Shown here piece after piece: positions 8,013 through 25,401 of a DNA stretch of 64,000 nt. Position 1 is the stretch's first letter, and each line of letters begins with the position of its first letter. A program made the translations under genes and the position numbers. The notes below the pieces were generated by a model. It was not told the origin of the DNA. It worked only from the letters and a program-made list of their open reading frames with translations, and searched no databases. Source of the stretch: Butyrivibrio sp. (GTDB lineage: Bacteria > Bacillota > Clostridia > Lachnospirales > Lachnospiraceae); assembly GCA_024694565.1 (NCBI GenBank), contig JAILJR010000031.1, positions 1-64,000 on the forward strand. Reading direction: 5' to 3'.

Positions 8013-8594
8013 TTACTCCAGATCCTCAATAAGAAGCTCCGCGATATGCTTCCTTGACACCCCGTTGTTCATTGCCTGACGGCCGATGTAGCTGTGAGCC
8101 TCGTCTTCTGTCATACTTCTTTTTTCCACGAGCAGTATCTTGGCTCTGCTCACAAGGCGCAGCTCCTCCAGCTTTTCCTCTAAAGACCTGTTCTTTATGG
8201 CCAGCTTTCTTAGCCTGTTCTGAATCGAGATCATATAGCGGATAGCTTTGTCCATCCTCCCTTTTGGAACAGGCTTTGATATAACGAGGACGCCTGCATC
8301 CGTAACCTTTTCAAGGATATCATCATAGATGTCCTCAGGGGTTACAAGCAGTATTGAGGAGTTTGTTTTTTCAGCAGCATCCAGCGAAAACTCCACCCCC
8401 ATCTCATCAGGCATGGGAGCGTTTATAACTATCAGATCATAATCCCTCTCGAGTATGCACCGCCTTGCTATTGATGCACTTCTCCTCACATCAATGGTTA
8501 TAAAGCCTGCAAGGGACTTCTTCACAAGGGCATCAAATCGCTCGGAGGAGGACACGATCAGAATGGATCGTCTGATACCTTCATTTTTAGGCAT
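8013..8594 (-). CDS. ANTAR-domain RNA-binding response regulator with degenerate receiver
   Basis: The product is 193 aa with an AGGAGG site overlapping the preceding gene's end. Residues about 8-125 form a receiver-like fold, but the phospho-acceptor position in VINAPMP is Asn instead of Asp, so conventional phosphorylation is unlikely. A helical linker (NRLRKLAIKNRSLEEKLEEL) leads to a C-terminal ANTAR three-helix domain at about 135-190 (SRAKILLVEKRSMTEDEAHSYIGRQAM). ANTAR proteins bind paired stem-loops in nascent RNA and prevent termination. It is nine bases downstream of a GS-like gene at the end of the nitrogen block, and two leaders in that block (21438-21481, 25293-25345) carry ANTAR-like hexaloops. 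Those are its most likely targets, by inference. Confidence 0.9.
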   Translation of the reverse strand: MPKNEGIRRSILIVSSSERFDALVKKSLAGFITIDVRRSASIARRCILERDYDLIVINAPMPDEMGVEFSLDAAEKTNSSILLVTPEDIYDDILEKVTDAGVLVISKPVPKGRMDKAIRYMISIQNRLRKLAIKNRSLEEKLEELRLVSRAKILLVEKRSMTEDEAHSYIGRQAMNNGVSRKHIAELLIEDLE

Positions 8595-9779: not shown

Positions 9780-9858
9780 ATTTGCATCCTCTTTAATATC
9801 TGATGAGCCGGACGGCAAAATCCCATCCGGCCAGCTCATCTGATGTTTATGTTTTTAG

Positions 9859-11076
9859 TTACGACAATTTCTTTAAGCGTTCAACAGCACGTATTGTGTT
9901 CTCACGGCTGCCGAAGGCGGTGAGACGGAAGTAGCCTTCTCCGTGAGGGCCGAAGCCTGAGCCGGGTGTTCCGACAATCCGGGCTTTTGCAAGAAGGTAG
10001 TCAAAGAACTCCCAGCTGGTCATGCTGTCTTTTGTCTTAAGCCAGATGTAGGGAGCGTTGATGCCACCTGAGACATCAAAGCCGGCGCTGCCAAGCCCCT
10101 CAAGGATTATCCCGGCATTTTCCATGTAATATGCAATCTGGGCTTTTACCTGGGCTCTTCCCTCATCCGAGTAGACAGCTTCGCCTGCTCTCTGAATGAT
10201 GTAGGGCGCGCCGTTATACTTCGTCCCATGCCTTCTTGCCCAGAGCGGCCAGAGCTTTTCCCCGCCGGCCTCAAGCTCCTTTGGGATCACGGTATATCCG
10301 AGGCGAAGTCCAGTAAAGCCCGCTGTCTTTGAAAAAGACTTAAACTCTATGGCACAGCCCCTTGCTCCCTCACATTCATATATGCTGTGGGGAACACCCT
10401 CCTCAGAAATAAAGGCTTCGTAGGCCGCATCATAGAGTATTATGGAACCGTTTTTGTTTGCATAGTCCACCCACTCCTGAAGGCGTTCCTTCTTCATTGC
10501 TGCTCCCGTGGGATTGTTCGGGAAACACAGATAGATAAGATCCGGCACTTCTGCAGGAAGCTCCGGCGCAAAATCATTCTCCTTTGTGCATGGCATGTAG
10601 ATCACACCCTTAAATCTCCGGAGCTCATCATCATATTCCCCGGTTCTTCCTGCCATGACATTCGAATCCACATACACAGGATAAACAGGATCACATACCG
10701 CGATCTTATTATCAAGAGAAAATATCTCCTGAATATTTCCACAGTCTGACTTGGCTCCATCGGAGACAAAGATCTCATCTGCTGAAATACCGCAGCCCCT
10801 TGCCTCATAGTCCTTCCTGGCTATGACATCCCTCAGAAACTCATATCCAAGGTCCGGAGCATATCCTTTAAAGCTCTCCTTCTGTCCCATCTCATCAACG
10901 GCAAGGTGAAGCGCCTTTATAACGGCTGGCGCAACAGGCTCCGTGACATCTCCAATCCCGAGCCGTATTATGTCAGCCTCAGGATTTGCCGCTGAATATT
11001 CAGCCACCTTCTTAGCAATAGTAGAAAACAGATAACTCCCCGGAAGCTTCTTATAGTTCCTATTAATAGTTGCCAT
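9859..11076 (-). CDS. dapL: LL-diaminopimelate aminotransferase
   Basis: The product is 405 aa, the usual DapL length. It converts tetrahydrodipicolinate plus glutamate to LL-diaminopimelate in one PLP-dependent step, feeding lysine and peptidoglycan synthesis. Family features visible are the N-terminal [33 protein letters not shown], and the PLP-lysine block [15 protein letters not shown]. It lies between gltD and the GS-like gene on the same strand. Its amino donor is glutamate, the product of the adjacent GltBD, which explains the placement. dapA and dapB are found at 42.4-44.2 kb. Confidence 0.95.
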
Positions 11077-11193: not shown

Positions 11194-12684
11194 TCACAAA
11201 TTCGTGTACCCCATCAGAAACTCATCGACTTCGCGGGCGCAGGCGCGGCCCTCGGCGATAGCCCATACCACAAGTGACTGCCCCCTGTGCATATCTCCTG
11301 CGGAAAAGAGCTTTGTCCCCGGTATACGGTATCCATCTTCCTGTGTGATAACAGCTCCGCGTTGATTCCTTGCAGCCGAAAACTCATCTGCTGCATAGTC
11401 CTCACACCCGATAAAGCCTGCTGCAATAAGCAGTATGTCACACTTCAGGGTCTTCTCTGTTCCTTCCACAAAAGACATTTTACCATCTTTAAATGTTACT
11501 TTCACAGTCTCTATCTGTTTTAGCTGCCCCTTTTTGTCTGTAAGGACACTCTTAACCGTCGTCTCAAACACCCTTGGATCTTCTCCAAAGAGCGCAATAG
11601 CCTCCTCATGCCCGTAGTCCGTCTTCAGGATCTTCGGCCACTCAGGCCACGGATTGTTTGCCATTCTTTGAACAGGCGGCTTTTTCATCATCTCAAGGGC
11701 TGTTACGCTCTTCGCACCAAGCCTTAATACTGTTCCTATGCAGTCATTTCCGGTGTCTCCACCGCCTACAACAACCACATTTTTACCCTTAACGTCGATG
11801 TATACGCCGGCATCCTCAAGAGCTGCCACAGTCCTGTCTTTAGCCTTCAAAAGAGCTCTGGTTGTACCGGACAGAAAATCTACCGCATAGTAAACACCCC
11901 TGACTTTTCCGGGCTCAGCAGCAGGGAGAGGTCGCGCCTTCTTTGCGCCGCAGCACAGTGCCACCGCGTCAAAGTCCTTCAGAAGTTCAGACCCTCTTAT
12001 ATCCTCTCCGACATTGCAGCCTGTATGGAAAATAACACCCTCATCCTCCATCAGCTTTCTTCTTCGCTTTATGACACTTTTGTCCAGCTTCATGTTGGGA
12101 ATCCCAAACATGAGAAGGCCTCCGATCTCTTCGTCCCTCTCAAAGACCTCAACGCTGTGTCCTCTGTGGTTCAGTTCGTCCGCTACAGCAAGTCCCGACG
12201 GACCGCTTCCTACTACAGCAACCTTTTTCCCGCTCCTTATGGGCGGAACAACCGGCTTTATATAACCTTCGGCATACGCCCTCTCCACCAGATAAAGCTC
12301 ATTGTCATGAACCGTCACCGGATCGCCATCCTGTCCGCACATGCAGGCCTTCTCACACAGCGCCGGGCACACCCTTCCCGTGAACTCTGGGAAGTTGCTT
12401 GTTTTGTGCAGCCTTGAAAAGGCATGCCCATCGTGCCCTCTGTAAATCTCATCATTCCACTCAGGGATAAGGTTGTGAAGAGGACAACCGGTGACCATCC
12501 CGGAGAGCTTCATTGCCGACTGGCAGAATGGAACCCCGCAGTTCATGCACCTTGCAGCCTGCTTCCTTCGAGCCGAAGAATCCAGCGGTGTATGGAACTC
12601 CCCGAAGCTCTTCACCCTCTCAAGAGGCGGAACATCACCGTTCTCTCTTCTTTTATACTCAAGAAATCCTGTCTCTTTTCCCAT
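11194..12684 (-). CDS. gltD: Glutamate synthase (NADPH) small subunit
   Basis: The product is 496 aa from ATG 12684 (MGKETGFLEYKRRENG), which has a GGGAGAG site; longer in-frame starts would run into gltB. The N-terminal Fe-S region is CMNCGVPFCQ, GCPLHNLIPEWN and CPALCEKACMCG. It is followed by an FAD-binding GSGPSGLAVADELN and an NAD(P)H-binding VVVGGGDTGNDCIG, and ends with the usual GDMHRGQSLVVWAI...GR. It passes electrons from NAD(P)H to GltB for conversion of 2-oxoglutarate plus glutamine to two glutamates. It is directly downstream of gltB (76 bp). Confidence 0.96.
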   Translation of the reverse strand: MGKETGFLEYKRRENGDVPPLERVKSFGEFHTPLDSSARRKQAARCMNCGVPFCQSAMKLSGMVTGCPLHNLIPEWNDEIYRGHDGHAFSRLHKTSNFPEFTGRVCPALCEKACMCGQDGDPVTVHDNELYLVERAYAEGYIKPVVPPIRSGKKVAVVGSGPSGLAVADELNHRGHSVEVFERDEEIGGLLMFGIPNMKLDKSVIKRRRKLMEDEGVIFHTGCNVGEDIRGSELLKDFDAVALCCGAKKARPLPAAEPGKVRGVYYAVDFLSGTTRALLKAKDRTVAALEDAGVYIDVKGKNVVVVGGGDTGNDCIGTVLRLGAKSVTALEMMKKPPVQRMANNPWPEWPKILKTDYGHEEAIALFGEDPRVFETTVKSVLTDKKGQLKQIETVKVTFKDGKMSFVEGTEKTLKCDILLIAAGFIGCEDYAADEFSAARNQRGAVITQEDGYRIPGTKLFSAGDMHRGQSLVVWAIAEGRACAREVDEFLMGYTNL

Positions 12685-12760
12685 TATTTCTTCTCTCCCA
12701 ATTTGATAGATCAGATATGGCGGCATCGCCAAAAGCCCTATCCGCTTTTGTCGATTATCA

Positions 12761-15700
12761 CTATATGATCTCTTTAAAGGCCTCAAGTACAGCGTTGTCG
12801 TAATCTATGCCCTGCTCCTCATACTTGCCGATGGCAGTCAGCATCCTTTGGTAATCGTTTGGAACTATCTTTTTAAAATCAGGCAGGTACTGCTCAAAAT
12901 TACTCAATATCTCCCTGGCGAATTCGGATTCCGTCTCCTTTACATAGTCCTCTATGATGCCCCGAAGCTCAGCAATGTCATATTTCTCTGTAACCTCATT
13001 TAATGAAGCCATATCCTTGTTCATCCTTAGATAAAGAGTGTGCTCCCGATCAAGGACATAGGCTATGCCGCCGCTCATTCCCGCGGCAAAGTTCTTACCA
13101 GTCATACCGAGGATCACTGCTCTTCCACCGGTCATGTACTCAAGTCCGTGGTCTCCACAGCCCTCGGATACAGCACACGCTCCGGAGTTTCTCACACAGA
13201 ATCTCTCACCGGCAATGCCGCATACATAGGCTTTTCCTGATGTTGCACCATAAAGCGCCACATTTCCTATGATGATGTTTTCATGTGCCTTGTAGGCTGC
13301 ATTCTCTGCAGGCCTTACTATAACCTTTCCTCCTGAGAGCCCCTTACCAAAACCGTCGTTTGCATCACCGTAGAGCTTTAATGTTATTCCCTTGGGAAGG
13401 AATGCTCCAAAGGACTGTCCACCGCCGCCCACTGCTTTTACTATGATCGAATCATCTGCGAGCCTGTTGCCAAAATCAGCAGTAACCCTGCTGCCAAGGA
13501 GTGTGCCAAAGCTTCTGTCGGTACTGGATACCTTTGCACTTATGCGTATTGACGGCTCCTTTGTATCAGGCATTGAAGCATGTATAAGGCCGGCCTTTAA
13601 TTTTTCTTTTTCTTTCTCGTACTCAGGAATCAGTACTTTGGAATCGATGGTCTTCTCCAGCCCAAAGTCATATATATCACCCGGTTCAAAGTGGCTCTTC
13701 TCAACTCCTGCATACGAGGGATCCAGTATTTTGGAAAGATCAGCCGTGTCCCTGCATCTTGCCTTTTCTATGGTTCTCATCTTCAGGCAGTCGGTTCTTC
13801 CGACCATCTCCTCAACCCTTCTGAATCCGAGAACGCTCATGATCTCACGCAGCTGCCTTGCCACAAAGAGCATAAAGTTCATGACATGCTCAGGCCTTCC
13901 TTTAAAGCGTTTTCTCAGCTCCTCATTCTGCGTTGCGATTCCCACAGGACAGGTATCCTTGGAACACACCCTCATCATCATGCAGCCCATGCATACAAGG
14001 GGTGCTGTTGCAAATCCGAATTCCTCCGCACCAAGGAGGGCTGCTATTGCCACATCCCTTCCTGTCATAAGCTTTCCATCTGTCTCAAGCACAACGCGGC
14101 TTCTTAGACCGTTGTCAAGAAGTGACTTGTGTGCTTCACTCACACCAAGCTCCCAGGGAAGACCTGCATGATGTACCGATGAAGAAGGCGCAGCACCCGT
14201 TCCTCCGTCGTAGCCTGAGATCAGTATCACCTGGGCTCCGGCCTTGGCAACACCGGATGCAATCGTCCCTACTCCTGCTTCAGATACCAGCTTCACTGAT
14301 ATCCTCGCCTTGTCGTTGGCATTCTTAAGGTCATATATGAGCTGTGCAAGATCCTCTATTGAATAAATGTCATGATGCGGCGGCGGAGATATAAGCGACA
14401 CTCCGGGTGTTGAAAACCTGGTTGAGGCAACCCAGGGATATACCTTTTTACCCGGAAGATGACCTCCCTCACCCGGTTTTGCTCCCTGTGCCATCTTTAT
14501 CTGTATCTCTTTGGCGCTCATCAGATACTGGCTCGTAACTCCAAACCTGCCTGAAGCGACCTGTTTTACCGCGCTGTTTCTCTCGGTGCCAAAGCGAGTC
14601 ACATCTTCACCGCCCTCACCTGTATTGCTCTTTCCCCCAAGGCGGTTCATGGCCTTCGCAAGAGTCTCATGAGCCTCCTTTGAAAGTGAGCCGTAGGACA
14701 TTGCTCCCGTCTGGAAGCGCTTAACGATTTCCTCCTCGCTTTCAACCTCCTCCAAAGGAACCGGCTCTTTTGCAGGGACAAATGCCAGCATGGCGCGAAG
14801 TGTGTGAGGTCTGTCCTCATCATCCACCATGGCGGCATACTCCTTAAACCTCTCGTAATCACCCTCCCTTACAGCTCTCTGAAGTGTCACGATAGTCCTG
14901 GGGCTGTACATATGGTCTTCCTTGTCCTCTCCGCTTCGAAGCGAATGGAAACCCTGAGAGTCGAGGGTCGTATCGACAGAAAGACCCAACGGATCAAATG
15001 CCCTGTTGTGCCTGTACTCTACATCTTCTCCTATTTCCTTTATACCGATCCCGCCAACCCTGCTGACGATCCCGGTAAAGTATTTGTCGACGAACTCCTG
15101 AGAAAGTCCTATCGCCTCAAATATCCTTGCTGACTGATATGACTGCAGAGTCGAGATTCCCATCTTGGCTGCAATCTTTACAACGCCTCCCAGAAGAGCC
15201 TTGTTGTAGTCAGCTATCGCAGTGTGATAGTCCTTGTCAAGGATCCCGAGATCTATGAGTTCTGCAATACACTCCTGTGCAAGATACGGATTGATCGCTC
15301 TGGCACCAAAGCCAAGCAGCGTCGCTATCTGATGCACGTCTCTGGGTTCGCCGCTCTCGAGTATGAGTGAAACCACTGTGCGCCTCTTTGTTCTTACGAG
15401 GTGCTGCTCCACTGACGAAACTGCCAAAAGAGACGGTATAGGCATATGGTTCTCATCAACTCCCCTGTCAGAGAGGATGATGATGTTGACGCCATCCGCA
15501 ACAGCCCTGTCAACCGAGATGTTGAGCTGGTCAAGCGCCCTGTCCACGGGTGTGTTCTTGTAATAGAGGAGCGATATCTTTTTCACCTTAAAGCCCGGCT
15601 GGTCGAGTGCCTCTATCTTCATGAGGTCGACACCCGTAAGTATCGGGTTGTTTACTTCGAGAACTCTGCAGTTTGAGCCCTTCTCCCTGAGAAGATCACC

Positions 15701-17299
15701 GTCTGAACCAATGTAGACGGTTGTATCCGTGACCACCTTCTCCCTCAGTGAATCGATAGGTGGATTTGTCACCTGGGCAAAGAGCTGCTTGAAGTAGCAA
15801 AAGAGCATCTGGTGGTGCTGCGACACAAAAGCCAGCGGCACATCGGTTCCCATCGAGACCGTCGACTCAACGCCGTTCATCGCCATGGGCATGATCTGCT
15901 CCTTTACATCCTCATAGGAGTAGCCAAAGACCTTGTAGAGCTTATCTCTGACCTCCTGGGTGTTTGTCGGTATCTTTTTATTAGGTATATTCAGTGACCC
16001 AAGGTGCAGAAGATGCCTGTCTATCCACTCTCCGTAGGGCTTTGACTTTGCATACCTCTCCTTGCACTCCTCGTCGGAAATTATCCTTTTCTGCCTTGTA
16101 TCAACAAGCAGCATATGCCCCGGAGAAAGACGCGATTTCTTTGCGATCCTGTCCTCCGGGATATCAAGCACGCCAACTTCAGATGAAAGGATCAGCCTTC
16201 CATCCGAGGTCACATAGTATCTTGAAGGACGCAGTCCGTTTCTGTCCAGGGTTGCGCCAAATACTTCGCCGTCTGTGAAAAGAACTGCTGCCGGTCCGTC
16301 CCATGGCTCCATCATTGTGGCATAGTAATGATAGAAGTCCTTCTTCTCCTTTCCCATAAAGTCATTGTGCTTCCAGGGCTCAGGAATCGTCAGCATCATC
16401 GCAAGCGGAAGGTCCATGCCGTTCATGTACAAAAACTCAAGTGTGTTGTCCAGCATGGCAGAGTCTGAACCCGACGAAGCAATGACAGGATAGACCTTGG
16501 CAAGGTCATCACCGAAAACCTCCGATGACATGGTCTCCTCCCTGGCCAGCATTCTGTCACTGTTTCCGCGGATGGTATTTATCTCGCCGTTGTGTGCGAT
16601 CATCCTGTAAGGATGGGCGCGCTGCCAGGAAGGTGTTGTGTTCGTCGAGAATCTGCTGTGTACCATGGCAATTGCAGTTTTGTAATCAGGGGACAGGAGG
16701 TCTTCATAGAAATTACGAAGCTGCCCAACGAGAAACATTCCCTTGTAGACAATAGTCCTCGATGAGAGCGAACATATATAGGTGTCCTCTGATGACTTTT
16801 CATATTCGCGGCGAAGAGCATAGAGACGCCTGTCAAATTCAATGCCCCTTGGAACATCAGATGGTCTTTCAATAAAGCACTGGCAGATGTGAGGCATGCA
16901 GTTTCTGGCAACCTCTCCGAGGATTTCGGGATGTATCGGAGTCTCTCTCCAGCCGAGAACCTTCAGGTTTTCCTTGTCAGCGATCACCTCCAGGAGTCTC
17001 TTTGCAAACATGCGCTTCATGTCATCCTGAGGAAAAAAGAACATGCCTATTCCGTAATCTCCCTTTTCCTTCAGGCTGATCCCCAGTCTTACCGCTTCTT
17101 TTGAAAAAAAGTCGTGTGAGATCTGAGCCAGGATACCGACACCGTCACCGACCTTGCCGGTTGCATCTTTTCCTGCTCTGTGCTCAAGCTTTTCAACTAT
17201 TGAGAGTGCATCGTCCAGGACTTTGTTGTCCGGAACTCCATTTATATTTATCACTGCGCCTATACCGCAGGCATCATGTTCTTTCATCCAATCTTCCAT
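12761..17299 (-). CDS. gltB: Glutamate synthase large subunit
   Basis: The product is 1512 aa, full length for the large subunit. The N-terminal glutamine amidotransferase domain has its nucleophile in HDACGIGAV after a short propeptide. The central and synthase/FMN domains include GGKSNTGEGGED and GQGAKPGEGGHLPG-like blocks. The 3Fe-4S cysteines lie in CMMMRVCSKDTCPVG, and the C-terminal GXGXG-type beta-helix has repeats such as GGGGQSFGAF and GMSGGIAYV. With GltD it forms the GOGAT enzyme. The 246-bp gap from glnN contains a palindromic repeat but no obvious promoter, so expression probably continues from asnB-glnN. Confidence 0.97.
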   Translation of the reverse strand: MEDWMKEHDACGIGAVININGVPDNKVLDDALSIVEKLEHRAGKDATGKVGDGVGILAQISHDFFSKEAVRLGISLKEKGDYGIGMFFFPQDDMKRMFAKRLLEVIADKENLKVLGWRETPIHPEILGEVARNCMPHICQCFIERPSDVPRGIEFDRRLYALRREYEKSSEDTYICSLSSRTIVYKGMFLVGQLRNFYEDLLSPDYKTAIAMVHSRFSTNTTPSWQRAHPYRMIAHNGEINTIRGNSDRMLAREETMSSEVFGDDLAKVYPVIASSGSDSAMLDNTLEFLYMNGMDLPLAMMLTIPEPWKHNDFMGKEKKDFYHYYATMMEPWDGPAAVLFTDGEVFGATLDRNGLRPSRYYVTSDGRLILSSEVGVLDIPEDRIAKKSRLSPGHMLLVDTRQKRIISDEECKERYAKSKPYGEWIDRHLLHLGSLNIPNKKIPTNTQEVRDKLYKVFGYSYEDVKEQIMPMAMNGVESTVSMGTDVPLAFVSQHHQMLFCYFKQLFAQVTNPPIDSLREKVVTDTTVYIGSDGDLLREKGSNCRVLEVNNPILTGVDLMKIEALDQPGFKVKKISLLYYKNTPVDRALDQLNISVDRAVADGVNIIILSDRGVDENHMPIPSLLAVSSVEQHLVRTKRRTVVSLILESGEPRDVHQIATLLGFGARAINPYLAQECIAELIDLGILDKDYHTAIADYNKALLGGVVKIAAKMGISTLQSYQSARIFEAIGLSQEFVDKYFTGIVSRVGGIGIKEIGEDVEYRHNRAFDPLGLSVDTTLDSQGFHSLRSGEDKEDHMYSPRTIVTLQRAVREGDYERFKEYAAMVDDEDRPHTLRAMLAFVPAKEPVPLEEVESEEEIVKRFQTGAMSYGSLSKEAHETLAKAMNRLGGKSNTGEGGEDVTRFGTERNSAVKQVASGRFGVTSQYLMSAKEIQIKMAQGAKPGEGGHLPGKKVYPWVASTRFSTPGVSLISPPPHHDIYSIEDLAQLIYDLKNANDKARISVKLVSEAGVGTIASGVAKAGAQVILISGYDGGTGAAPSSSVHHAGLPWELGVSEAHKSLLDNGLRSRVVLETDGKLMTGRDVAIAALLGAEEFGFATAPLVCMGCMMMRVCSKDTCPVGIATQNEELRKRFKGRPEHVMNFMLFVARQLREIMSVLGFRRVEEMVGRTDCLKMRTIEKARCRDTADLSKILDPSYAGVEKSHFEPGDIYDFGLEKTIDSKVLIPEYEKEKEKLKAGLIHASMPDTKEPSIRISAKVSSTDRSFGTLLGSRVTADFGNRLADDSIIVKAVGGGGQSFGAFLPKGITLKLYGDANDGFGKGLSGGKVIVRPAENAAYKAHENIIIGNVALYGATSGKAYVCGIAGERFCVRNSGACAVSEGCGDHGLEYMTGGRAVILGMTGKNFAAGMSGGIAYVLDREHTLYLRMNKDMASLNEVTEKYDIAELRGIIEDYVKETESEFAREILSNFEQYLPDFKKIVPNDYQRMLTAIGKYEEQGIDYDNAVLEAFKEII

Positions 17300-17545: not shown

Positions 17546-19654
17546 TTATCTGAGTGAGAAGAGCATCTGGCCGTAGGTCGGGTAGCTAAGGTATTTGTCA
17601 GGGATCAGGGCCTCGGCTTCATCTGCGTATTTTCTCAGTTCTTCCATGTCCTTTAGGACTGTGCTTTGATAGTATGATGCAGTCTCCAGAGCCTCGACCT
17701 TTTTCTCAGCTTCCTTTGTGTCGTCTGCAAGTGTCTTCAGAGCTGAACACATTTTGGCACTGGCGTCGTCAAGGGATTTGAGGATACCTGTTTCCAGGGT
17801 GCAGGCAGCTCCTTCGATTGCTTCTCTCTTTTGAAGGATTTCTTTGGAGAGATCCTTCTCATAGGCAATAATGCCTTCTGTCAGGTCTTTTCTCACCATC
17901 TCCTGCATTGTCAGAGCCTCGATGTGTATCGACTTCGAGTAGTTCTCGAGAAGGATCTCATATCTTGAATGTATCTCTTCCTTTGTAAAGATACCATGTC
18001 TGGTGAAGAGCTCTATGGACTCGTCAGATATCCAGTAGGGCATTGCATCAGGAAGGGACTTGAGGTTCGGAAGACCTCTCTTTGCCGCTTCTTCAACCCA
18101 CTCGTCGGTATAACCGTTTCCGTTGAAAAGAACTCTCTTGTGCTCTGCAAGTGTCTCCTTTAGGATCTCCATTACCTTTTCCTTCAGCTCGTCGCCGCTG
18201 TAAGAAGAAAGCTTCTCGTAGAGCTTTGCCACTTCTTCAGCAACAGCCGTGTTGAGGACAATATTGGCATTTGCAACCGACACTGATGAACCCGGCATGC
18301 GGAACTCGAACTTGTTTCCGGTGAAAGCAAAGGGCGATGTCCTGTTCCTGTCTGTGTTATCCTTTGTAAAGTGCGGAAGAACCGTAGCACCCATGGCCAT
18401 CTGAACCTTGCCCTGGCTCTTGTAGGCAGCACCCTCTTCCACTCCCTTCAATACCTCTGCAAGTTCATCTCCAACAAAGATTGAGATGATTGCCGGAGGT
18501 GCCTCGTTTCCGCCGAGTCTGTGGTCGTTTCCTGCGGATGCAACTGAAAGGCGGAGTATTGGAGCATACTCATCAACAGCTGCAATAACCGACATGAGAA
18601 ATACGAGGAAAGGAATGTTCTCTCCGGGGTTCTTTCCGGGATCCAGAAGGTTCATCCCGGTATCGGTACAGATGGACCAGTTGTTGTGCTTTCCGGATCC
18701 GTTGATTCCCTCGAAGGGCTTCTCGTGAAGAAGGCATGCATAATTGTGCTTGTCGGCAACCTTCTTCATGACCTCCATGGTGAGCTGGTTGTGGTCCACG
18801 GCAATATTGGCTGTCTCAAATACAGGTGCCAGCTCATGCTGGGAAGGAGCAACCTCGTTGTGCTTGGTCTTTGCGGGAATTCCCAGCTTCCAGAGCTCTT
18901 CATCAAGGTCATGCATGTATGCAGAAACCTTAGGCTTGATAACTCCAAAGTAGTGGTCCTCCATCTCCTGACCCTTTGTGGCAGGCGCACCAATAAGTGT
19001 TCTGCCTGTAAAGAGGAGGTCCTTTCTCTGTTTGTAGAAATCCTTATCGATAAGGAAATATTCCTGCTCGGAGCCGATTGTTGTGTTGACCCTGTTTACA
19101 TCCTCGTAGCCAAGCAGGTGAAGCATCTTTACCGCCTCATTTGACAGCGCCTCCATTGAACGAAGAAGAGGGGTCTTTTTATCCAGCGCCTCTCCGCCGT
19201 AGGAGCAGAAGGCTGTCGGAATGTAAAGTGAACCATCCTTGATAAACGCGGGGGATGATGGATCCCATGCGGTATATCCCCTGGCCTCAAAGGTTGCCCT
19301 AAGTCCCCCTGATGGAAAGCTTGATGCGTCCGGCTCTCCCTTTACCAGCTCTTTTCCCGAAAACTCCATGATGATCCTTCCGTCATCAAGGGGTGAGATA
19401 AAGCTGTCGTGCTTCTCAGCTGTGAGTCCTGTCATGGGCTGGAACCAGTGAGTGAAATGTGTCGCACCGTTTTCTATAGCCCACTCCTTCATTGTCGCTG
19501 CAACACAGTTCGCAACGTCAAGTTCAAGGTGGGTGCCCTTTTCAATTGTCTTATGTACTGCTTTATAGATATCCTTTGGAAGTCTCTCCCTCATAACCTT
19601 GTCATTGAATACCAGACTTCCGAATTCCTCTGTAAGTTTTCCTGCATCGATCAT
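17546..19654 (-). CDS. glnN: Glutamine synthetase type III
   Basis: The product is 702 aa, typical of the large dodecameric GSIII class. It has a strong AAGGAGGAGAAC ribosome site. It makes glutamine from glutamate, ammonium and ATP. GSIII features are THFTHWFQPMTG, EQEYFLID, KHNEVAPSQHE, GSGKHNNWS, GNDHRLGGNEAPPAI and a long C-terminal helical region. Substrate and metal residues in these blocks are intact, unlike the GSI-like protein at 8604-9779. It follows asnB by 60 bp and precedes gltB, so it is probably on the asnB transcript and under the control of the asnB leader. Confidence 0.96.
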   Translation of the reverse strand: MIDAGKLTEEFGSLVFNDKVMRERLPKDIYKAVHKTIEKGTHLELDVANCVAATMKEWAIENGATHFTHWFQPMTGLTAEKHDSFISPLDDGRIIMEFSGKELVKGEPDASSFPSGGLRATFEARGYTAWDPSSPAFIKDGSLYIPTAFCSYGGEALDKKTPLLRSMEALSNEAVKMLHLLGYEDVNRVNTTIGSEQEYFLIDKDFYKQRKDLLFTGRTLIGAPATKGQEMEDHYFGVIKPKVSAYMHDLDEELWKLGIPAKTKHNEVAPSQHELAPVFETANIAVDHNQLTMEVMKKVADKHNYACLLHEKPFEGINGSGKHNNWSICTDTGMNLLDPGKNPGENIPFLVFLMSVIAAVDEYAPILRLSVASAGNDHRLGGNEAPPAIISIFVGDELAEVLKGVEEGAAYKSQGKVQMAMGATVLPHFTKDNTDRNRTSPFAFTGNKFEFRMPGSSVSVANANIVLNTAVAEEVAKLYEKLSSYSGDELKEKVMEILKETLAEHKRVLFNGNGYTDEWVEEAAKRGLPNLKSLPDAMPYWISDESIELFTRHGIFTKEEIHSRYEILLENYSKSIHIEALTMQEMVRKDLTEGIIAYEKDLSKEILQKREAIEGAACTLETGILKSLDDASAKMCSALKTLADDTKEAEKKVEALETASYYQSTVLKDMEELRKYADEAEALIPDKYLSYPTYGQMLFSLR

Positions 19655-19714: not shown

Positions 19715-21298
19715 TCAGTAGGCGCTGGCGCCATAATTTGAAAGAACTCTTGCCGAAGGATCGTTCACATCACAGCCCTTCCAGCTCTTATTTGGCATCC
19801 AGAAATCAGCCACCATACCTGCCTGTCCCGGATAATACTTTTCAAATATCTCTCTATATAGAAGCGATTCCTTCGTAAAAGGTCTCGCATGGCTGTATTT
19901 CTTTTTCCTGATCTCACATTCTGCATCCGTGTAGCAGCTGTCCGCATATTCCATGAGATCATCCCTCAGGGAATGTCCCACTGCATCTGAAAAGGCTGCC
20001 TTTTCCCTCATCAGGATTGACCTTGGTATGAACTCATCCTTTTCAAAGGCCTTACGCAAAAGAAATTTTCCTATCCCGTAGGTATTGAGCTTCTTTTCAG
20101 GGTCAATACTCATAACGTAATCCACAAAGTCCAGGTCTCCGAAGGGAACCCTTGCCTCGAGGGAGTTTACACTTATGCACCGGTCCGCCCTGAGCACATC
20201 ATACATATGGATCTCCCTGATCCTCTTTTGTGCTTCCTCCTGGAAAGCCTGCGCTGACGGGGCAAAATCTGTGTACTTGTATCCAAACAGCTCATCTGAT
20301 ATCTCACCGGTGAGTATTACTCTAATGTCCGTGTTCTCCCGGATCCATTTACACAGAAGATACATTCCTATCGATGCCCTTATGGTAGTAATATCAAAGG
20401 TTCCAAGCGCATGTATCACAGGCTCAAGTGCAGCGATCACGTCGTCCTTTGTGATGATGACCTCATGGTGGTTGCTGTGAATGTAATCCGCGACCTCTCT
20501 CGCATACTTAAGGTCTATGGCATCTATGTCCATTCCTATGGCGAAGGTCTCTATCGGCTTATCCTGAAGACTGGCAGCAACTCCGCAGACAAGTGATGAA
20601 TCAAGTCCTCCGGATAAGAGGAATCCAACCGGTGCATCCGCATCCAGTCTCTTTTTTATTCCCTCATACAGCTTGTCGTGAATGTTCTCTGTTATTCTCT
20701 CAAGGCTGTCAGTACAAACCGTTGTCACGCAGGTCATATCCCTGTAGCAGATGAACTTTCCGTCCTCGTAGTAATGTCCGGGCGGGAAGGGTTTTATCTT
20801 CTCGCAGCATCCGACCAGATTCTTTGGCTCTGACGCAAAGACGATGCAGCCATCGCCGTCATAGCCGTAGTAGAGCGGCCTTATTCCAATCGGATCTCTG
20901 GCAGCAATGAAGCTGTTCTTCTTAGCATCATAGATCACACATGCAAACTCCGCATCCAGAAAGCCGAACATCTTTGTTCCAAGCTTCTCATATAATGGAA
21001 GAAGTATCTCGCAGTCACTGTCGCTCACAAATGTATACCCCAGTGATTTAAGGTATTTCTTCAGGTCTTTGAACCCGTAGAGCTCGCCGTTACATACAAC
21101 AGAGTTTCCATTCAGTGTAAAGGGCTGCATTCCTGCCTCACTGAGCCCCATGATAGACAGCCTGTTAAATCCCATCCATCCGCTCTTCACTTTGAGGCTC
21201 CTCGACATATCGGGTCCTCTTGAAATTGTCTTTTCAAGCATCTTTTCAAAGTATTCCTTTGAAAGGTCTGCTCTTGCGTATGTAAGTATTGCGCACAT
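19715..21298 (-). CDS. asnB: Asparagine synthase (glutamine-hydrolysing)
   Basis: The product is 527 aa, close to the usual AsnB length. Cys2 (MCAI) is the N-terminal amidohydrolase nucleophile, with SRGPD and NGELYG blocks. The synthetase domain has the PP-loop SGGLDSSLVCG and the GEISDELFGY signature. It makes asparagine from aspartate, ATP and glutamine. The gene is first behind a strong promoter (21488-21516) with a terminator-type leader hairpin, and glnN follows 60 bp downstream. The leader of about 180 nt between hairpin and start codon holds no other gene. Confidence 0.95.
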   Translation of the reverse strand: MCAILTYARADLSKEYFEKMLEKTISRGPDMSRSLKVKSGWMGFNRLSIMGLSEAGMQPFTLNGNSVVCNGELYGFKDLKKYLKSLGYTFVSDSDCEILLPLYEKLGTKMFGFLDAEFACVIYDAKKNSFIAARDPIGIRPLYYGYDGDGCIVFASEPKNLVGCCEKIKPFPPGHYYEDGKFICYRDMTCVTTVCTDSLERITENIHDKLYEGIKKRLDADAPVGFLLSGGLDSSLVCGVAASLQDKPIETFAIGMDIDAIDLKYAREVADYIHSNHHEVIITKDDVIAALEPVIHALGTFDITTIRASIGMYLLCKWIRENTDIRVILTGEISDELFGYKYTDFAPSAQAFQEEAQKRIREIHMYDVLRADRCISVNSLEARVPFGDLDFVDYVMSIDPEKKLNTYGIGKFLLRKAFEKDEFIPRSILMREKAAFSDAVGHSLRDDLMEYADSCYTDAECEIRKKKYSHARPFTKESLLYREIFEKYYPGQAGMVADFWMPNKSWKGCDVNDPSARVLSNYGASAY

Positions 21299-21437
21299 AC
21301 CGGCTTTTCCTCCTGATTATCTTCCTTCACAGTTCCACAAATTGTGTCACACACTGCGCCTTTACAGCTTTATCACGGCTTTCGCAGATACACTTTCACA
21401 AAGCTGTGTTCCATCGGAAATTCTTCAAAACAGCAAA

Positions 21438-21481
21438 AAGGCGCCTTAGAGAATATTTCTCTAAGACGCCTTTGTCTTATG
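21438..21481 (-). promoter_or_regulatory. asnB leader: terminator hairpin overlapping ANTAR-like hexaloop stem
   Basis: The leader starts next to the predicted transcript start. The terminator is a 16-bp stem (AAGGCGTCTTAGAGAA, loop ATA) followed by TTTTT. An alternative stem UAAGAC-AAAGGC-GUCUUA shares the terminator's 5' arm; its six-base loop has A at position 1 and G at position 4, as in ANTAR-recognised RNAs. Formation of one blocks the other. The second hairpin (AGAGAA/UUCUCU) is the inner part of the terminator and does not show a classic hexaloop. Confidence 0.65.
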
Positions 21482-21487
21482 TTTAGG

Positions 21488-21540
21488 ATTGTACACTGCC
21501 CCTAATCACCTGTCAAGTATTTTTGTATACAATTATGCAA
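21488..21540 (-). promoter_or_regulatory. asnB promoter with upstream TTGTATACAA box
   Basis: The -35 TTGACA (21511-21516), 17-bp spacer and -10 TACAAT (21488-21493) form a near-consensus sigma-A promoter. Directly upstream is the palindrome TTGTATACAA followed by TTATGCAA on the plus strand. The 30 bp from -35 through this box (21511-21540) are identical to those upstream of amt (25372-25401), suggesting a common regulator. Confidence 0.8.
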
Positions 21541-21556
21541 TTGTATCTGCTAAACG

Positions 21557-21849
21557 GTTTCAATTCAGTTGCCAGACAGCCGGAGCAGGCCAGAACAAGT
21601 GAAAGGCTGAGCCGGGGTGCCTTGAAAAACGTCGGCACTTTGAGCAGAGCACTTAGCGAGGTATTTTCGAGCTTAGTGCGAGCCATAGGTGTGCACTTGA
21701 CGAGGTATTTTCGAGTCTAGTGCATCATCCTAGGCGCACGTATTTTGGGCGCTTAGTACCGCTACGTTTTTCACGGAGCGAAAGCATCACCTCGGGCAGA
21801 CTTACACTTGTGACGGCCTGCTCTGGCTGGCTGGCAACTGAATTGTAAC
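21557..21849. repeat. Long intergenic inverted-repeat element, copy C (purF-asnB gap)
   Basis: Near-perfect outer arms of about 30 bp (CAATTCAGTTGCCAG... at 21557 and its complement ending at 21849) abut the purF stop codon. Inside are two direct repeats built on GAGGTATTTTCGAG (about 21658 and 21702) and a CTTAGTACCGCTACG motif related to the core of copies A, B and F. A half copy is at 31561-31623. No coding frame is convincing. Confidence 0.75.
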
Positions 21850-21850
21850 A

Positions 21851-23221
21851 CTAAACGGGATAATCCCCATCAAAGCAGGCCTTGCACAGAGGAAGGGAGC
21901 CGGTCATCCGGGTGAAGTCCTCTATATTAAGGTAGCTGAGAGAGTCTGCGCCTATAGTCTTTCGCACTTCCTCTGTTGAGTGCTCAGAGGCTATGAGCTC
22001 GTTGGTGCTGGGGACGTCTGTACCGTAGTAACATGGGTGCAAAAATGGCGGTGAGCTTATTCGAACATGGACCTCTCTTGCTCCTTCCTCCCTTAGCATC
22101 TCGACGATCCTCTTCATAGTGGTTCCTCTTACTATTGAATCGTCGATGAGCACAATCCTCTTATCCCTGACCACGCTTCCAAGGACGCTTAGCTTCATCC
22201 GGACAGCCGCTTTTCTCTCTTCGTCCGTCGGCTTGATGAAGCTTCTTCCTATATAACTGTTCTTGTGAAAGACGAACTCAAAGGGTATACCCGACTCCAG
22301 GGCATACCCCTCAGCTGCAAGGAGCCCGGAGTCCGGAACTCCGGAAACAATATCTGCTTCTACCGCTGCCCTCTTTGCCAGCGCCCTTCCGGCATTTATC
22401 CTTGCGTCGTGAACGGAAATTCCGTCTATAACAGAATCGTTCCTTGCAAAATAGATATATTCAAAAATACAGTGTGCTCTTTTCCCGCTGCAGAGAGTTT
22501 CATCAAAGGAAGTACCTTCCGGCGTTATGCTGATCATCTCACCGGGCTTTATGTCCCTGATCAGCTTTCCACCAACTGCCTTAATTGCTGCACTTTCGGA
22601 AGTCAGGATGTAACTGTCACCCTTCTTCCCAAGCACCAGAGGCTTAATGCCCTGCGGATCGCGGATTCCTATCATTTTACGCGGACTCATTATGACTACA
22701 GCATATCCGCCCCTGAGTACACCGGCTGTCCTTAATATTGCCTCCTCGATCGTTCCTGTCTTTGTCCTGTTGCTGATGATCTCATAAGCCAGAACCTCGG
22801 AATCGGAGGTCGTGTAATGTGCCTGCCCCCTGTAGAGCTGCTGCTCTTTTATCTCGTTTGCATTTACTATGTTGCCGTTGTGTACCAGCGCAAGGGTGCC
22901 TTTAATATAGTTCATTGCAATCGGCTGGGCGTTTTCGATGCTGCTGTCTCCTGTTGTGGAATATCTGACATGCCCTACTCCGATGTCGCCTCTCATACCG
23001 CCAAGGGCTTCATCCGAAAAGACCTCACTCACAAGCCCCATGCCCTTCCTTGTGGAGATGTTGCCCATCGGTCCTGACGTATCACAGACAGATATCCCCG
23101 CTGACTCCTGTCCCCTGTGCTGCAGCGCAGTAAGTCCGTAATAAATGTCCCTGACCACACTGCCACCACAAAGAGAGTATATTCCGAAAACTCCGCATTC
23201 CTCATGTAATTCGTCAAACAT
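21851..23221 (-). CDS. purF: Amidophosphoribosyltransferase
   Basis: The product is 456 aa from ATG 23221, placed nine bases after AGGAGGG; a GTG six bases earlier is too close to that site. This is the first committed step of purine synthesis: PRPP plus glutamine to phosphoribosylamine. A short propeptide precedes the nucleophile in EECGVFGIY. RGQESAG, the PRPP loop VLIDDSIVRGTT and the C-terminal cluster cysteines CKACFDGDYP fit the Bacillus-type Fe-S enzyme. It lies 150 bp downstream of the amt fusion, separated by a hairpin (23304-23350). It is a glutamine consumer in a nitrogen block, with no other pur genes in the window. Confidence 0.95.
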   Translation of the reverse strand: MFDELHEECGVFGIYSLCGGSVVRDIYYGLTALQHRGQESAGISVCDTSGPMGNISTRKGMGLVSEVFSDEALGGMRGDIGVGHVRYSTTGDSSIENAQPIAMNYIKGTLALVHNGNIVNANEIKEQQLYRGQAHYTTSDSEVLAYEIISNRTKTGTIEEAILRTAGVLRGGYAVVIMSPRKMIGIRDPQGIKPLVLGKKGDSYILTSESAAIKAVGGKLIRDIKPGEMISITPEGTSFDETLCSGKRAHCIFEYIYFARNDSVIDGISVHDARINAGRALAKRAAVEADIVSGVPDSGLLAAEGYALESGIPFEFVFHKNSYIGRSFIKPTDEERKAAVRMKLSVLGSVVRDKRIVLIDDSIVRGTTMKRIVEMLREEGAREVHVRISSPPFLHPCYYGTDVPSTNELIASEHSTEEVRKTIGADSLSYLNIEDFTRMTGSLPLCKACFDGDYPV

Positions 23222-23303
23222 TAACACTTTCCCTCCTCATCAAAAAATCAAGATATATTCCTTCAGTATTTATCTTGCTCTGCCCGCTTTTTAAAAAGGC
23301 TTT

Positions 23304-23350
23304 AGGGACGGTTCATTGCTGCCGTATCAAAGCAGCAACGAATCGTCCCT
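23304..23350 (-). other. Hairpin between amt and purF
   Basis: The arms AGGGACGGTTCATTGCTGC and GCAGCAACGAATCGTCCCT pair with two mismatches around an 8-9 base loop. On the minus strand it follows the amt stop codon, with a U-rich stretch a few bases on. It may be a partial terminator or processing site lowering purF expression relative to amt. Confidence 0.55.
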
Positions 23351-23371
23351 TTACATCAACCGTGTTATATT

Positions 23372-25141
23372 TTACTCAACATCTGCCAGTGCTTCTCTGC
23401 CCTGCTCACCTGTCCTGATCTTTACTACGTTGTCGAGACTGTAGACGAAGATCTTGCCGTCACCGATGTGTCCGGTGTAAAGAGCCTTCTTGGCTGCATC
23501 AATGACATCCTCAACAGGGATGGCGCTGACTACAACCTCAAGCTTGATCTTAGGAAGAAGTGTCGCATCCATCTCAACTCCGCGGTACATCTCACCCGAG
23601 CCCTTCTGAATGCCGCAGCCCATAACCTGGCTGACTGTCATTCCGGTTACACCAAGATCGTTCATAGCCCTGCGAAGCTTGTCATAGCGCGAGAGCTTGG
23701 CGATAATGACAACCTTGTGGATTCCGGAATCTGTTGAAACAGGTGCTGACATAACCTGAACCGATGCATTCTTCTGAAATACTGAAGCTGACTCGTATTC
23801 GCTCACGCCGAGGTCTGTGTTCTCGTTTACAGACATGTTCAGTGTGTTTGAGATATCCATGATAGCAAATCCAGAGTAAGCTGATGCCAGACCGTGCTCT
23901 GTTGAATCCAGACCAAGGATCTCCGCTTCCTCTGTGACGCGAAGACCAAGCGTTGCCTTGATGGCAAGGAAGGTAAGAGAGATCGTCACTGCAGTCCAGG
24001 CTGCTGTACTAAGCATACCGGCCATCTGTATTCCAAGGAGTTTAAATCCGCCGCCGTAGAAAAGACCTGTCATCTCTGCACCTGCTGCATCTGCTATTGA
24101 ATAACAGGGCGCTGAGTTTGTTGCAAAAAGACCAACTGCAAGTGTTCCCCAGATACCGTTTAAACAGTGAACCGCAACAGCACCAACAGGATCATCTACA
24201 TGAAGCTTATAGTCAAGAAGCCATACACCAAAGCAGACAAGTAGTCCGGCTACAATACCGATAACTGCTGCTCCGAAGGCATCTGCCACATCACAGGGTG
24301 CTGTAATAGCTACAAGTCCTGCAAGTGAAGCATTGAGACACATTGAAACATCGGGCTTGCCATACTTAAGCCATGTGAAGATCATGCATGTAACAGTTGC
24401 AAGTGCAGGTGCTATTGTTGTCGTTACAAATACTGATCCGAGCTGGTCTATTGATGTGCAGGCTGCTCCGTTAAAGCCGTACCAGCCAAGCCACAGAATG
24501 AATACACCAAGTGAAGCTGCTGTGAGGTTGTGACCCGGAAAAGCATTAACCTTTGTCACTTTACCGTTCTCATCCTTCTCAAATTTTCCAATTCTTGCTC
24601 CGAGAAATGCTGCACCTATCAGTGCTGAGATTCCGCCGACCATGTGAATGCAGTTGGAACCTGCAAAATCATGGAAGCCTATCTGTGAAAGCCAGCCGCC
24701 TCCCCATGTCCAGTGAGCTTCAACCGGGTAGATCACAGCTGAGATAACTGCCGAGTACACACAGTAGGATAAAAACTTTGTTCTCTCAGCCATGGAACCC
24801 GATACGATCGTTGCTGTCGTTGCACAGAACACCAGGTTAAACACGAAGTTCGACCAGTCAAACTCTGCATAGTTTGTAAAAATATCAAACCCGGGTTTTC
24901 CGATTATTCCCATCAGATCCTCTCCAAGGAATAATCCAAATCCAATCAGGATGAAAACCACTGTTCCGATACAGAAATCCATCAGATTCTTCATGATGAT
25001 GTTTCCCGTATTCTTAGCTCTGGTAAAGCCGGCCTCACACATGGCAAATCCTGCCTGCATCCAGAAAACAAGGGCCGCACCAATAAGGAACCACACTCCA
25101 AATACACTGCTGTCAATAGCTGTTAAGATTTCTTCACTCAT
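23372..25141 (-). CDS. amtB: Ammonium transporter fused to a PII signalling domain
   Basis: The product is 589 aa from ATG 25141 (MSEEILTAID; GGAGAGGAG upstream); the reading frame extends further upstream but without family similarity. Residues about 1-420 form an 11-helix Amt/Rh channel with both pore histidines visible (NCIHMVGG and VAVHCLNGIWG). Residues about 475-589 form a PII (GlnB/GlnK) domain: HKVVIIAKLSRYDKLRRAM, the T-loop GSGEMYRGVEMDATLLPK, and the B-loop TGHIGDGKIFV. At the position of E. coli GlnB Tyr51 there is Met, so uridylylation is not expected; regulation by ATP/ADP/2-oxoglutarate binding is more likely. The fusion puts the PII gate permanently next to the channel's cytoplasmic face. 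It is first in its unit, behind the leader at 25293-25377. Confidence 0.95.
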   Translation of the reverse strand: MSEEILTAIDSSVFGVWFLIGAALVFWMQAGFAMCEAGFTRAKNTGNIIMKNLMDFCIGTVVFILIGFGLFLGEDLMGIIGKPGFDIFTNYAEFDWSNFVFNLVFCATTATIVSGSMAERTKFLSYCVYSAVISAVIYPVEAHWTWGGGWLSQIGFHDFAGSNCIHMVGGISALIGAAFLGARIGKFEKDENGKVTKVNAFPGHNLTAASLGVFILWLGWYGFNGAACTSIDQLGSVFVTTTIAPALATVTCMIFTWLKYGKPDVSMCLNASLAGLVAITAPCDVADAFGAAVIGIVAGLLVCFGVWLLDYKLHVDDPVGAVAVHCLNGIWGTLAVGLFATNSAPCYSIADAAGAEMTGLFYGGGFKLLGIQMAGMLSTAAWTAVTISLTFLAIKATLGLRVTEEAEILGLDSTEHGLASAYSGFAIMDISNTLNMSVNENTDLGVSEYESASVFQKNASVQVMSAPVSTDSGIHKVVIIAKLSRYDKLRRAMNDLGVTGMTVSQVMGCGIQKGSGEMYRGVEMDATLLPKIKLEVVVSAIPVEDVIDAAKKALYTGHIGDGKIFVYSLDNVVKIRTGEQGREALADVE

Positions 25142-25292
25142 ACTCTGCTCTCCTCTCCAACCGGGACTGTTTTCTGACCGGTTTCTGCATAAACAAAAGG
25201 AAGCAGTACAATGCCACACCATGTATGTGTGATGCTCCATTGCACCGCTTCTCATGTTTAATAATTAAAATCCTTGAATATTCAAAGTAAAG

Positions 25293-25345
25293 AAAAAACG
25301 TCTCAGAGATGCTATCATCTCTAAGACGCCCTTGTCTTTATGTTT
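25293..25345 (-). promoter_or_regulatory. amt leader: terminator hairpin overlapping ANTAR-like hexaloop stem
   Basis: The terminator hairpin 25299-25328 (CGTCTTAGAGATG, loop ATAG, CATCTCTGAGACG) is followed by six U. Upstream, AAGAC-AAGGGC-GUCUU can form a 5-bp stem with a hexaloop carrying A1 and G4. This consumes the 5' arm of the terminator and leaves AGAGAUG/CAUCUCU as a second stem. The arrangement matches the asnB leader, with the stem sequence conserved and loop position 3 and the terminator interior differing. Confidence 0.65.
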
Positions 25346-25348
25346 AGG

Positions 25349-25401
25349 ATTCTACACTCGCACATACCTGTTGTCAAGTATTTTTGTATACAATTATGCA
25401 A
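25349..25401 (-). promoter_or_regulatory. amt promoter with upstream TTGTATACAA box
   Basis: The -35 TTGACA (25372-25377), 17-bp spacer and -10 TAGAAT (25349-25354) are followed by the same CCTAAACATAA start region as at asnB. The 30 bp from 25372 to 25401 are identical to the asnB upstream region. Confidence 0.8.

Follow-up and report, generated by a model that had tools for sequence, protein, structure and literature searches.

The described ANTAR attenuators, those of eut, nasF and amiE, carry two stem-loops (PMC3369931, PMC3369936, PMC8934654). In the available parts of the 2012 paper (PMC3369931), its commentary (PMC3369936), a 2021 actinobacterial survey and the 2022 structure paper (PMC8934654), the target family is dual by definition, and the accessible text of the 2012 and 2022 EutV papers makes both hexaloops obligatory for antitermination (PMC3369931, PMC8934654). 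ANTAR proteins have been linked to nitrogen assimilation, as far as the consulted portions of the sources go: NitR of Clostridium saccharobutylicum is an ANTAR antiterminator inducing glutamine synthetase (GS) and glutamate synthase (GOGAT) genes on nitrogen limitation (PMC6316151), the ANTAR targets of the 2012 survey include P-II, ammonium transporter and GS/GOGAT genes (PMC3369931), and in C. thermocellum an ANTAR gene lies in a GS-GOGAT cluster (PMC4676874). Here we describe a nitrogen assimilation block in a 64,000-nucleotide stretch of Butyrivibrio sp. (assembly GCA_024694565.1, contig JAILJR010000031.1, positions 1 to 64,000; hereafter the window). Its two transcription units, headed by amt and asnB, each begin with a short leader that is quite probably an ANTAR-type attenuator with a single hexaloop, read by the ANTAR protein encoded in the same block.

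Both leaders were found on the minus strand at the positions proposed in a first-pass annotation of the window, made from the letters alone. They comprise the following elements:

25349..25377, minus strand: amt promoter TTGACA-17-TAGAAT (TTGACA 25377-25372, TAGAAT 25354-25349), 11/12 against the consensus
25323..25338, minus strand: amt single hexaloop hairpin AAGAC-AAGGGC-GUCUU (AAGAC 25338-25334, loop AAGGGC 25333-25328, GUCUU 25327-25323), the proposed ANTAR-bound antiterminator, with covariation in relatives
25293..25327, minus strand: amt intrinsic terminator and U-run (GUCUUAGAGAUG...CAUCUCUGAGAC 25327-25300, U-run 25298-25293)
21488..21516, minus strand: asnB promoter TTGACA-17-TACAAT (TTGACA 21516-21511, TACAAT 21493-21488), 11/12 against the consensus
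21462..21479, minus strand: asnB single hexaloop hairpin UAAGAC-AAAGGC-GUCUUA (UAAGAC 21479-21474, loop AAAGGC 21473-21468, GUCUUA 21467-21462), with covariation in relatives
21435..21470, minus strand: asnB intrinsic terminator and U-run (terminator about 21470-21440, U-run 21439-21435), overlapping the 3' side of the hexaloop hairpin

The hairpin, of 5 bp at amt and 6 bp at asnB, directly follows the predicted +1, as expected from the annotation's placement of the leaders near the transcript start, and in each leader its 3' arm is itself the 5' arm of the terminator. Both loops obey the rule of A at position 1 and G at position 4 (A1/G4), and the annotation's remark that a second clean A1/G4 hexaloop is missing is borne out for these leaders. 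The U-run terminators that it reported are likewise present, with 17 and 18 pairs instead of the 16 and 13 claimed, the higher counts arising because flanking pairs were included. The fold with the terminator has a predicted energy of -29.1 (amt) and -27.3 (asnB) kcal/mol, against -12.4 and -11.6 kcal/mol for the fold with the hexaloop hairpin, which alone contributes -3.2 and -4.5 kcal/mol. Since the terminator fold is better by about 16 kcal/mol, the hexaloop hairpin would need help to win. The two promoters are the top scorers in the 18-kb block, all other minus-strand sites scoring below 10/12, and promoter-like sites are not enriched over the whole block (24 against a shuffle mean of 21.2). 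A leader 20-mer is restricted to these two sites in the assembly, even with up to 3 mismatches allowed, which speaks against a chance likeness. The window has no Rfam match at gathering score; weak sub-threshold matches to rli56 and trpB were regarded as chance.

Conservation of the hairpin extends well beyond these two sites. The sequence GACAANGNCGTCTTA is present without mismatch in 23 of the 37 genomes of the genus and, in the loci read, it occurs in the same promoter setting ahead of amt, asnB or the LL-diaminopimelate aminotransferase gene (DapL). A wider survey covered 81 loci, namely the window and named ANTAR loci (at least 80 among the matches listed). A loop-blind scan of these loci for hexaloop hairpins closed by a C-G pair, with a stem of at least 4 pairs and overlapping a terminator, gave A and G at loop positions 1 and 4 in 72 of 135 hairpins, near-identical genomes being kept; the runner-up combination occurred 14 times. 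Leaders were also chosen without regard to pairing, by the 8-mer CANNGNNG together with a promoter of at most 2 mismatches. A stem of at least 4 pairs is found at 87 of the 126 sites with a promoter, compared with 714 of 11762 (6.1%) without one, and at 55 of the 56 promoter-linked sites with the loop AAAGGC.

Covariation was assessed in 73 of 88 core-loop leaders (68 distinct rows), the 15 omitted being mostly duplicates or near-duplicates. Across the 73 leaders, 87.3% of cells are paired, against 35.8-44.9% in a slid register. The covariation score is 0.647 against 0.299 in shuffled sets, none of 500 shuffles reaching as high, and both sides are changed in 110 cells compared with 43.7 in shuffles. 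Stem variants include AAGAC/GUCUU, UGAAC/GUUCA, ACAGC/GCUGU and AAGGC/GCCUU, in which the closing C-G pair is imposed by the selection. The hexaloop stem is thus both conserved and covarying in relatives, the check that the annotation had named for its proposal. In 85 of the 88 leaders the same 3' arm also pairs into a terminator-like hairpin, compared with 26/300 and 30/300 control sites; the former controls were the first 300 among 370 core-loop sites, the latter 300 taken from 11350 others.

The number of hexaloops and their distance from the transcription start are the points at which these leaders depart from the described motif. Among 54 leaders with a promoter of at most one mismatch, taking the start as 7 nt past the -10 box, the first stem base lies at about +0 to +8 (median 3.5). 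This range partly reflects the promoter scan, which was limited to the stretch 3-14 nt ahead of the fourth base of the stem. The list of 54 excludes loci L144 and L145, both of which are retained in the terminator count of 85/88 and the loop count of 72/135. In a re-test free of this limit, 68 distinct hits were picked solely by their hairpin and terminator. In 28 of them, and in none of 30 shuffles, a promoter of at most one mismatch lies no more than 14 nt from the stem; 33 of the 68 have one when 2 mismatches are allowed. Within 150 nt upstream, 34 of the 68 hits have a promoter of at most one mismatch: 28 of these promoters are within 14 nt of the stem and the rest are 65-99 nt up.

These figures bear on the possibility that the leaders are classical dual-hexaloop ones, in which the start or promoter is further upstream and a second hexaloop is included in the transcript. 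Such an explanation would agree with the two stem-loops of the described attenuators and with the lack of a good promoter near the stem in about half of the hits; in one locus, L178, a P1-like hexaloop without G4 is seen by eye beside the AAAGGC hairpin. It is very improbable, since 28 of the 34 hits having a good promoter have it within 14 nt of the stem. Moreover, a second A1/G4 hairpin with a stem of at least 4 pairs lies upstream in 3 of 73 leaders, close to the shuffle mean of 1.7 (up to 5), and none of these three has a good promoter beside the hairpin. Under one looser rule, 24 EutV-type or high-scoring ANTAR neighbourhoods (0.46 Mb) contain 3 dual motifs, against 0-1 in shuffles, and 82 nitrogen-type loci (1.29 Mb) contain 6, against 0-3 in shuffles; of these six, only the motifs of L133 and L145 involve an attenuator hairpin. 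The contrast between the two types is suggestive, not strong, and the positive control for dual hexaloops is thin: a strict terminator-based scan of the 24 EutV-type neighbourhoods returned four P2-like matches and no P1, and EutP neighbourhoods gave nothing usable. The single hexaloop is the rule of this leader group and not a defect of the two leaders in the window; it is a real departure from the described motif. According to the available text of the 2022 paper, a single hexaloop is the minimal binding site, and single sites are supposed where no polymerase races (PMC8934654). Leaders of the kind found in the window would be single sites inside an attenuator.

Some leaders in the survey show other arrangements. 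Tandem one-hexaloop attenuators, each with its own terminator, stand ahead of glnN in L109 (minus strand, 17078 and 17142) and L113 (minus strand, 17056 and 17126; all strand coordinates). In L131 (3952), L132 (9087), L133 (10569) and L135 (10594), the same kind of hairpin and terminator follows the ANTAR match by no more than 50 nt, without a good promoter nearby, a placement that suggests that the attenuator may sit within an operon. In the glnN leader of L145 (minus strand, strand coordinate 10800), the terminator tip loop ACAGAA is itself an A1/G4 hexaloop; this is a single case and may be chance.

The genes behind the two leaders form two minus-strand units, one comprising amt-glnB and purF and the other running from asnB to the ANTAR gene (21298 down to 8013):

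23372..25255, minus strand: amt-glnB fusion, ammonium transporter with P-II (PF00909 392 bits, PF00543 79 bits); the coordinates are those of the longest open reading frame and the true start is perhaps further in
21851..23227, minus strand: purF, amidophosphoribosyltransferase (TIGR01134 489.5 bits)
19715..21298, minus strand: asnB, asparagine synthase B (NF006949 605.5 bits)
17546..19654, minus strand: glnN, GS type III (PF12437 269 bits)
12761..17299, minus strand: gltB, glutamate synthase large subunit
11194..12786, minus strand: gltD, glutamate synthase small subunit (TIGR01317 592.5 bits)
9859..11076, minus strand: DapL (TIGR03542 589 bits)
8604..9839, minus strand: GS-like protein, a probable pseudoenzyme and proposed glutamine sensor (best NCBIfam match TIGR00653)
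8013..8594, minus strand: ANTAR protein with a degenerate receiver, the proposed antiterminator (PF03861 51.6 bits)

Because no further minus-strand promoter reaches 10/12, the block from asnB to the ANTAR gene may be one transcript. The annotation considered that a whole assimilation block under one antiterminator would be unusual. This is not so, judging from the accessible descriptions of NitR and of the regulons in the 2012 survey (PMC6316151, PMC3369931).

The ANTAR gene was correctly located in the annotation and contains the sole PF03861 match in the source assembly (3.47 Mb, 82% complete). The domain is C-terminal in the protein and scores well above the cut-off of 27.3 bits, and the receiver (PF00072, 27.3 bits) falls below its cut-off of 30.2. 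A profile of the orthologues aligns over its full length with Rv1626 and EutV. Residues were counted in 45 orthologues, L150 being excluded for a stop in the stated frame. The EutV loop-contact residues K149, E160 and M172 are kept in 45/45, and Y164 is replaced by H in 44/45, a change also seen in the aligned AmiR. The acid pocket of the receiver is absent from all 45, and the phospho-acceptor position is D in 6 and N in 36. The domain appears to be a pseudo-receiver, in which ordinary phosphorylation should not work, because the acid pocket is absent and the phospho-acceptor mostly lost. The proteins of about 187 amino acids carrying ANTAR domains in other congeners were considered as unrelated systems; this was rejected, since they also adjoin a GS gene. 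Among 19 loci of a second, divergent ANTAR clade in the genus, 17 carry a GS gene upstream, and the remaining two are EutV-like ANTARs of other families.

The constant neighbour of the ANTAR gene is the GS-like gene, which lies immediately upstream in 76 of the 81 loci (among the loci listed). Of the five exceptions, three have the ANTAR gene at a contig end and two have a GS-like gene that failed the distance rule. The protein in the window matches TIGR00653 (type I GS) with 254 bits, under the 429-bit cut-off. Residue numbers and catalytic roles are presumably those of the Salmonella type-I enzyme, and the comparison used one reference GS, with an uncertain alignment in the flap. On this basis all 35 near GS-like proteins (window and L071-L105) have other residues at the equivalents of E327, R339 and R344, while 33 or 34 of them retain each of E131, E212, E220, H269 and R321. 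Metal and substrate ligands are thus retained for the most part. The protein in the window has also lost E129 (Q) and R355 (H). Among 41 distant GS-like proteins, E327 is kept in 9, R339 in 41 and R344 in 38; E327 is replaced by D in 17/17 GS proteins of the second clade. The GS-like protein is therefore a probable pseudoenzyme, and gene order together with residue loss suggests that it could be a glutamine sensor. Enzyme activity could come from the type III GS of the block, which would leave the GS-like protein free to sense.

The distribution of the leaders was examined in 291 genomes drawn from the class Clostridia, with a model (R1) that covers promoter and hairpin and from which the terminator was deliberately excluded. 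Its alignment holds 62 of 65 leaders with a stem of at least 4 pairs and a spacer of 17, L123, L144 and L145 being left out. At an E-value of 1e-3, R1 matches occur in 65 of the 291 genomes, 59 of which have PF03861, against a base rate of 145/291 (Fisher p 4.5e-15, uncorrected for relatedness); at 1e-4 the figure is 35 of 36. Matches above 1e-3 include false positives (weak matches in ANTAR genomes were inspected in part), so that co-occurrence is best taken at 1e-3 or stricter. An ANTAR gene without an R1 match at 1e-3 is found in 86 genomes, which would fit the use of different motifs by other ANTAR systems. Confinement of the leader to Butyrivibrio was considered and rejected, since leaders occur across Clostridia. 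For 70 promoter-linked leaders of the window and the named loci, the next annotated gene within 500 bases is glnN in 15, the GS-like gene in 14, asnB in 6, the ANTAR gene in 3, purF in 2, and amt, DapL and gltB in one each. The remaining 27 have none of nine genes within this distance; for 14 of these, a gltB match follows 0.9-1.3 kb downstream.

Stem covariation, terminator overlap, placement ahead of nitrogen genes and of a GS-like/ANTAR pair, and co-occurrence with ANTAR genes support the proposal of the first-pass annotation that the leaders are ANTAR targets. Several observations weigh against a one-hexaloop ANTAR attenuator at +1. Changes on both sides occur in 5 of the 6 stem pairs, a spread equalled by 252 of 500 shuffles. 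Among the hairpin-terminator hits, 35 of 68 have no promoter of up to 2 mismatches near the stem, so that the +1 placement is clear for about half of them only. Of the EutV residues contacting the flipped G4 base (R142, K149, E160 and Y164), R142 is found in 0/45 orthologues (mostly I or L); R168 is likewise found in 0/45, being replaced by E or G, and 20/45 retain R175. In EutV, deletion of the first hexaloop (P1) abolishes induction and a lone stem-loop binds worse, according to the accessible text (PMC3369931); since EutV needs its first hexaloop, a one-hexaloop antiterminator contradicts the best-studied case. Finally, real-looking leaders occur in genomes with no recognisable ANTAR gene. 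Of 14 genomes with an R1 match at 1e-2 and no ANTAR gene, 6 lack a canonical hairpin, one (G292) is ambiguous and 7 (G098, G102, G270, G294, G304, G325 and G342) have such leaders. The leader directly precedes amt in G098, G304 and G342 and is divergent from glnN in G270 and G325, whereas in G102 and G294 no annotated gene follows it directly. Four of the 7 genomes reach 90% completeness or more with no more than 5% contamination, and a search of all 7 with the ANTAR orthologue profile gave receiver matches only, or none. An assembly gap or a different reader may be involved in these cases.

Instead of ANTAR, a small molecule, the pool of starting ribonucleotides or some other RNA-binding protein could read the hairpin. 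The 7 genomes would fit such a factor, as would the conservation of the loop AAAGGC beyond what the A1/G4 rule demands and the position of the hairpin at +1, which recalls start-site-coupled attenuation, where a hairpin also lies at +1. A non-ANTAR factor is nonetheless improbable in view of the co-occurrence with ANTAR genes, the ANTAR gene within the block, the A1/G4 rule and the retained loop-contact residues; nor does the window reach the gathering score of any Rfam family, the sub-threshold matches looking like chance. A sensor kinase, or the P-II domain carried by the Amt fusion, might signal to the ANTAR protein in place of the GS-like protein. P-II proteins are classical nitrogen sensors and the Amt-GlnB fusion lies within the regulon. 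Such a source of the signal seems rather unlikely, given a receiver without acid pocket and mostly without phospho-acceptor, and a GS-type neighbour that accompanies both ANTAR clades so constantly.

In the preferred explanation, with the block's own ANTAR protein as reader of a single hexaloop, the architecture, its conservation and covariation, the co-occurrence and the residue loss are seen in the sequences, whereas binding, read-through, the direction of the response and sensing are inferred. Polymerase starting from the predicted +1 would make the short hairpin with its AARGGC loop within the first few nucleotides. By default the terminator would form and transcription would stop after about 50 nt, because the 3' arm of the hairpin doubles as the 5' arm of a strong terminator. 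During nitrogen (glutamine) shortage, the ANTAR protein would bind the A1/G4 hexaloop as the hairpin leaves the polymerase, hold the hairpin and so block the terminator. Read-through would then proceed into amt-purF and asnB-glnN-gltBD-(DapL)-GS-like-ANTAR, the ANTAR gene itself included; the block would feed its own regulator, because the gene order puts ANTAR in the block. The recruitment hairpin proposed for EutV may be unneeded here, because the hexaloop hairpin is transcribed first. It is less certain that the ANTAR protein would be switched by its GS-like neighbour and not by phosphorylation, low glutamine leading to its release. The corresponding generalisation, that one-hexaloop ANTAR attenuators at the 5' end, with no need of a recruitment hairpin and with an antiterminator governed by a glutamine-sensing GS pseudoenzyme acting on a pseudo-receiver, control nitrogen assimilation in much of Clostridia, is put forward tentatively, at slightly less than even odds.

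The system can be compared with several described ones, within the limits of the available source texts. It resembles NitR in placing GS/GOGAT genes under an ANTAR antiterminator; the accessible description of NitR does not mention a GS-like sensor (PMC6316151). It shares with EutV-EutW the A1/G4 hexaloop, the competition of the 3' arm with a U-run terminator and the residues K149, E160 and M172 (PMC3369931, PMC8934654), but differs in having one hexaloop instead of two, no recruitment hairpin, a hairpin at +1, a pseudo-receiver in place of a phosphorylated receiver, H for Y164 and no R142. The proposed control of an ANTAR protein by a ligand-binding partner recalls AmiC-AmiR and NasS-NasT, and AmiR has a pseudo-receiver too (PMC3369936, PMC3795266), whereas the partner proposed here is a GS-like protein. 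In Bacillus subtilis, GS acts on the nitrogen regulator TnrA by direct contact (PMC6316151); there an active enzyme meets a DNA-binding regulator, whereas here a seemingly inactive GS-like protein would meet an RNA-binding one. What appears to be new is the use of one hexaloop instead of two, and a GS-like partner with three catalytic residues apparently lost beside a pseudo-receiver ANTAR protein. A literature search, outside which most subscription papers lay, brought up neither a one-hexaloop attenuator nor a GS pseudoenzyme acting with an ANTAR protein. A one-hexaloop class would be overlooked because the 2012 and 2021 surveys, in their available parts, searched for the dual motif. With a natural one-hexaloop attenuator in hand, the reason for requiring two hexaloops elsewhere can be put to a direct test. 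Should the GS-like partner prove to be a sensor, a large group of gut and rumen Clostridia would control nitrogen through the pairing of a pseudoenzyme with an RNA-binding protein.

Model R1 recovers both leaders of the window and a third one in the same genome (G000:C120:70530-70586, in locus L241, G000:C120:69000-73500) with an E-value of 0.0023. It consists of a promoter TTGACA-17-TAAAAT, a 4-bp stem with the loop AATGGC and a terminator, judged by eye, of the form GGCGTCTCGGAG...CTCTGAGGCGC-TTTTT. The gene behind it encodes an N-acetyl sugar amidotransferase (TIGR03573 353 bits, cut-off 203). PurF, AsnB and GltB are glutamine-using enzymes, and the amidotransferase presumably also draws on glutamine.

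A second level of control may exist at the DNA level. A 22-nt stretch, TTGTATACAAAAATACTTGACA, is identical at the amt and asnB promoters and contains a palindrome upstream of each -35 box:

25384..25393, minus strand: palindrome TTGTATACAA upstream of the amt -35 box, in the 22-nt repeat, a possible operator
21523..21532, minus strand: palindrome TTGTATACAA upstream of the asnB -35 box, in the 22-nt repeat

In the whole assembly, TTGTATACAA-N5-CTTGACA matches exactly at these two promoters only, and the element does not occur at the third leader. The arrangement hints that TTGTATACAA could be the operator of a DNA-binding protein. The palindrome is also present ahead of leaders in several congeners. 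Long imperfect inverted repeats occupy intergenic gaps of the window at 21557-21849 (53-nt arms, 85%), 17336-17479 (33 and 23 nt) and 7836-7982 (28 nt); they are perhaps small mobile elements or RNA structures.

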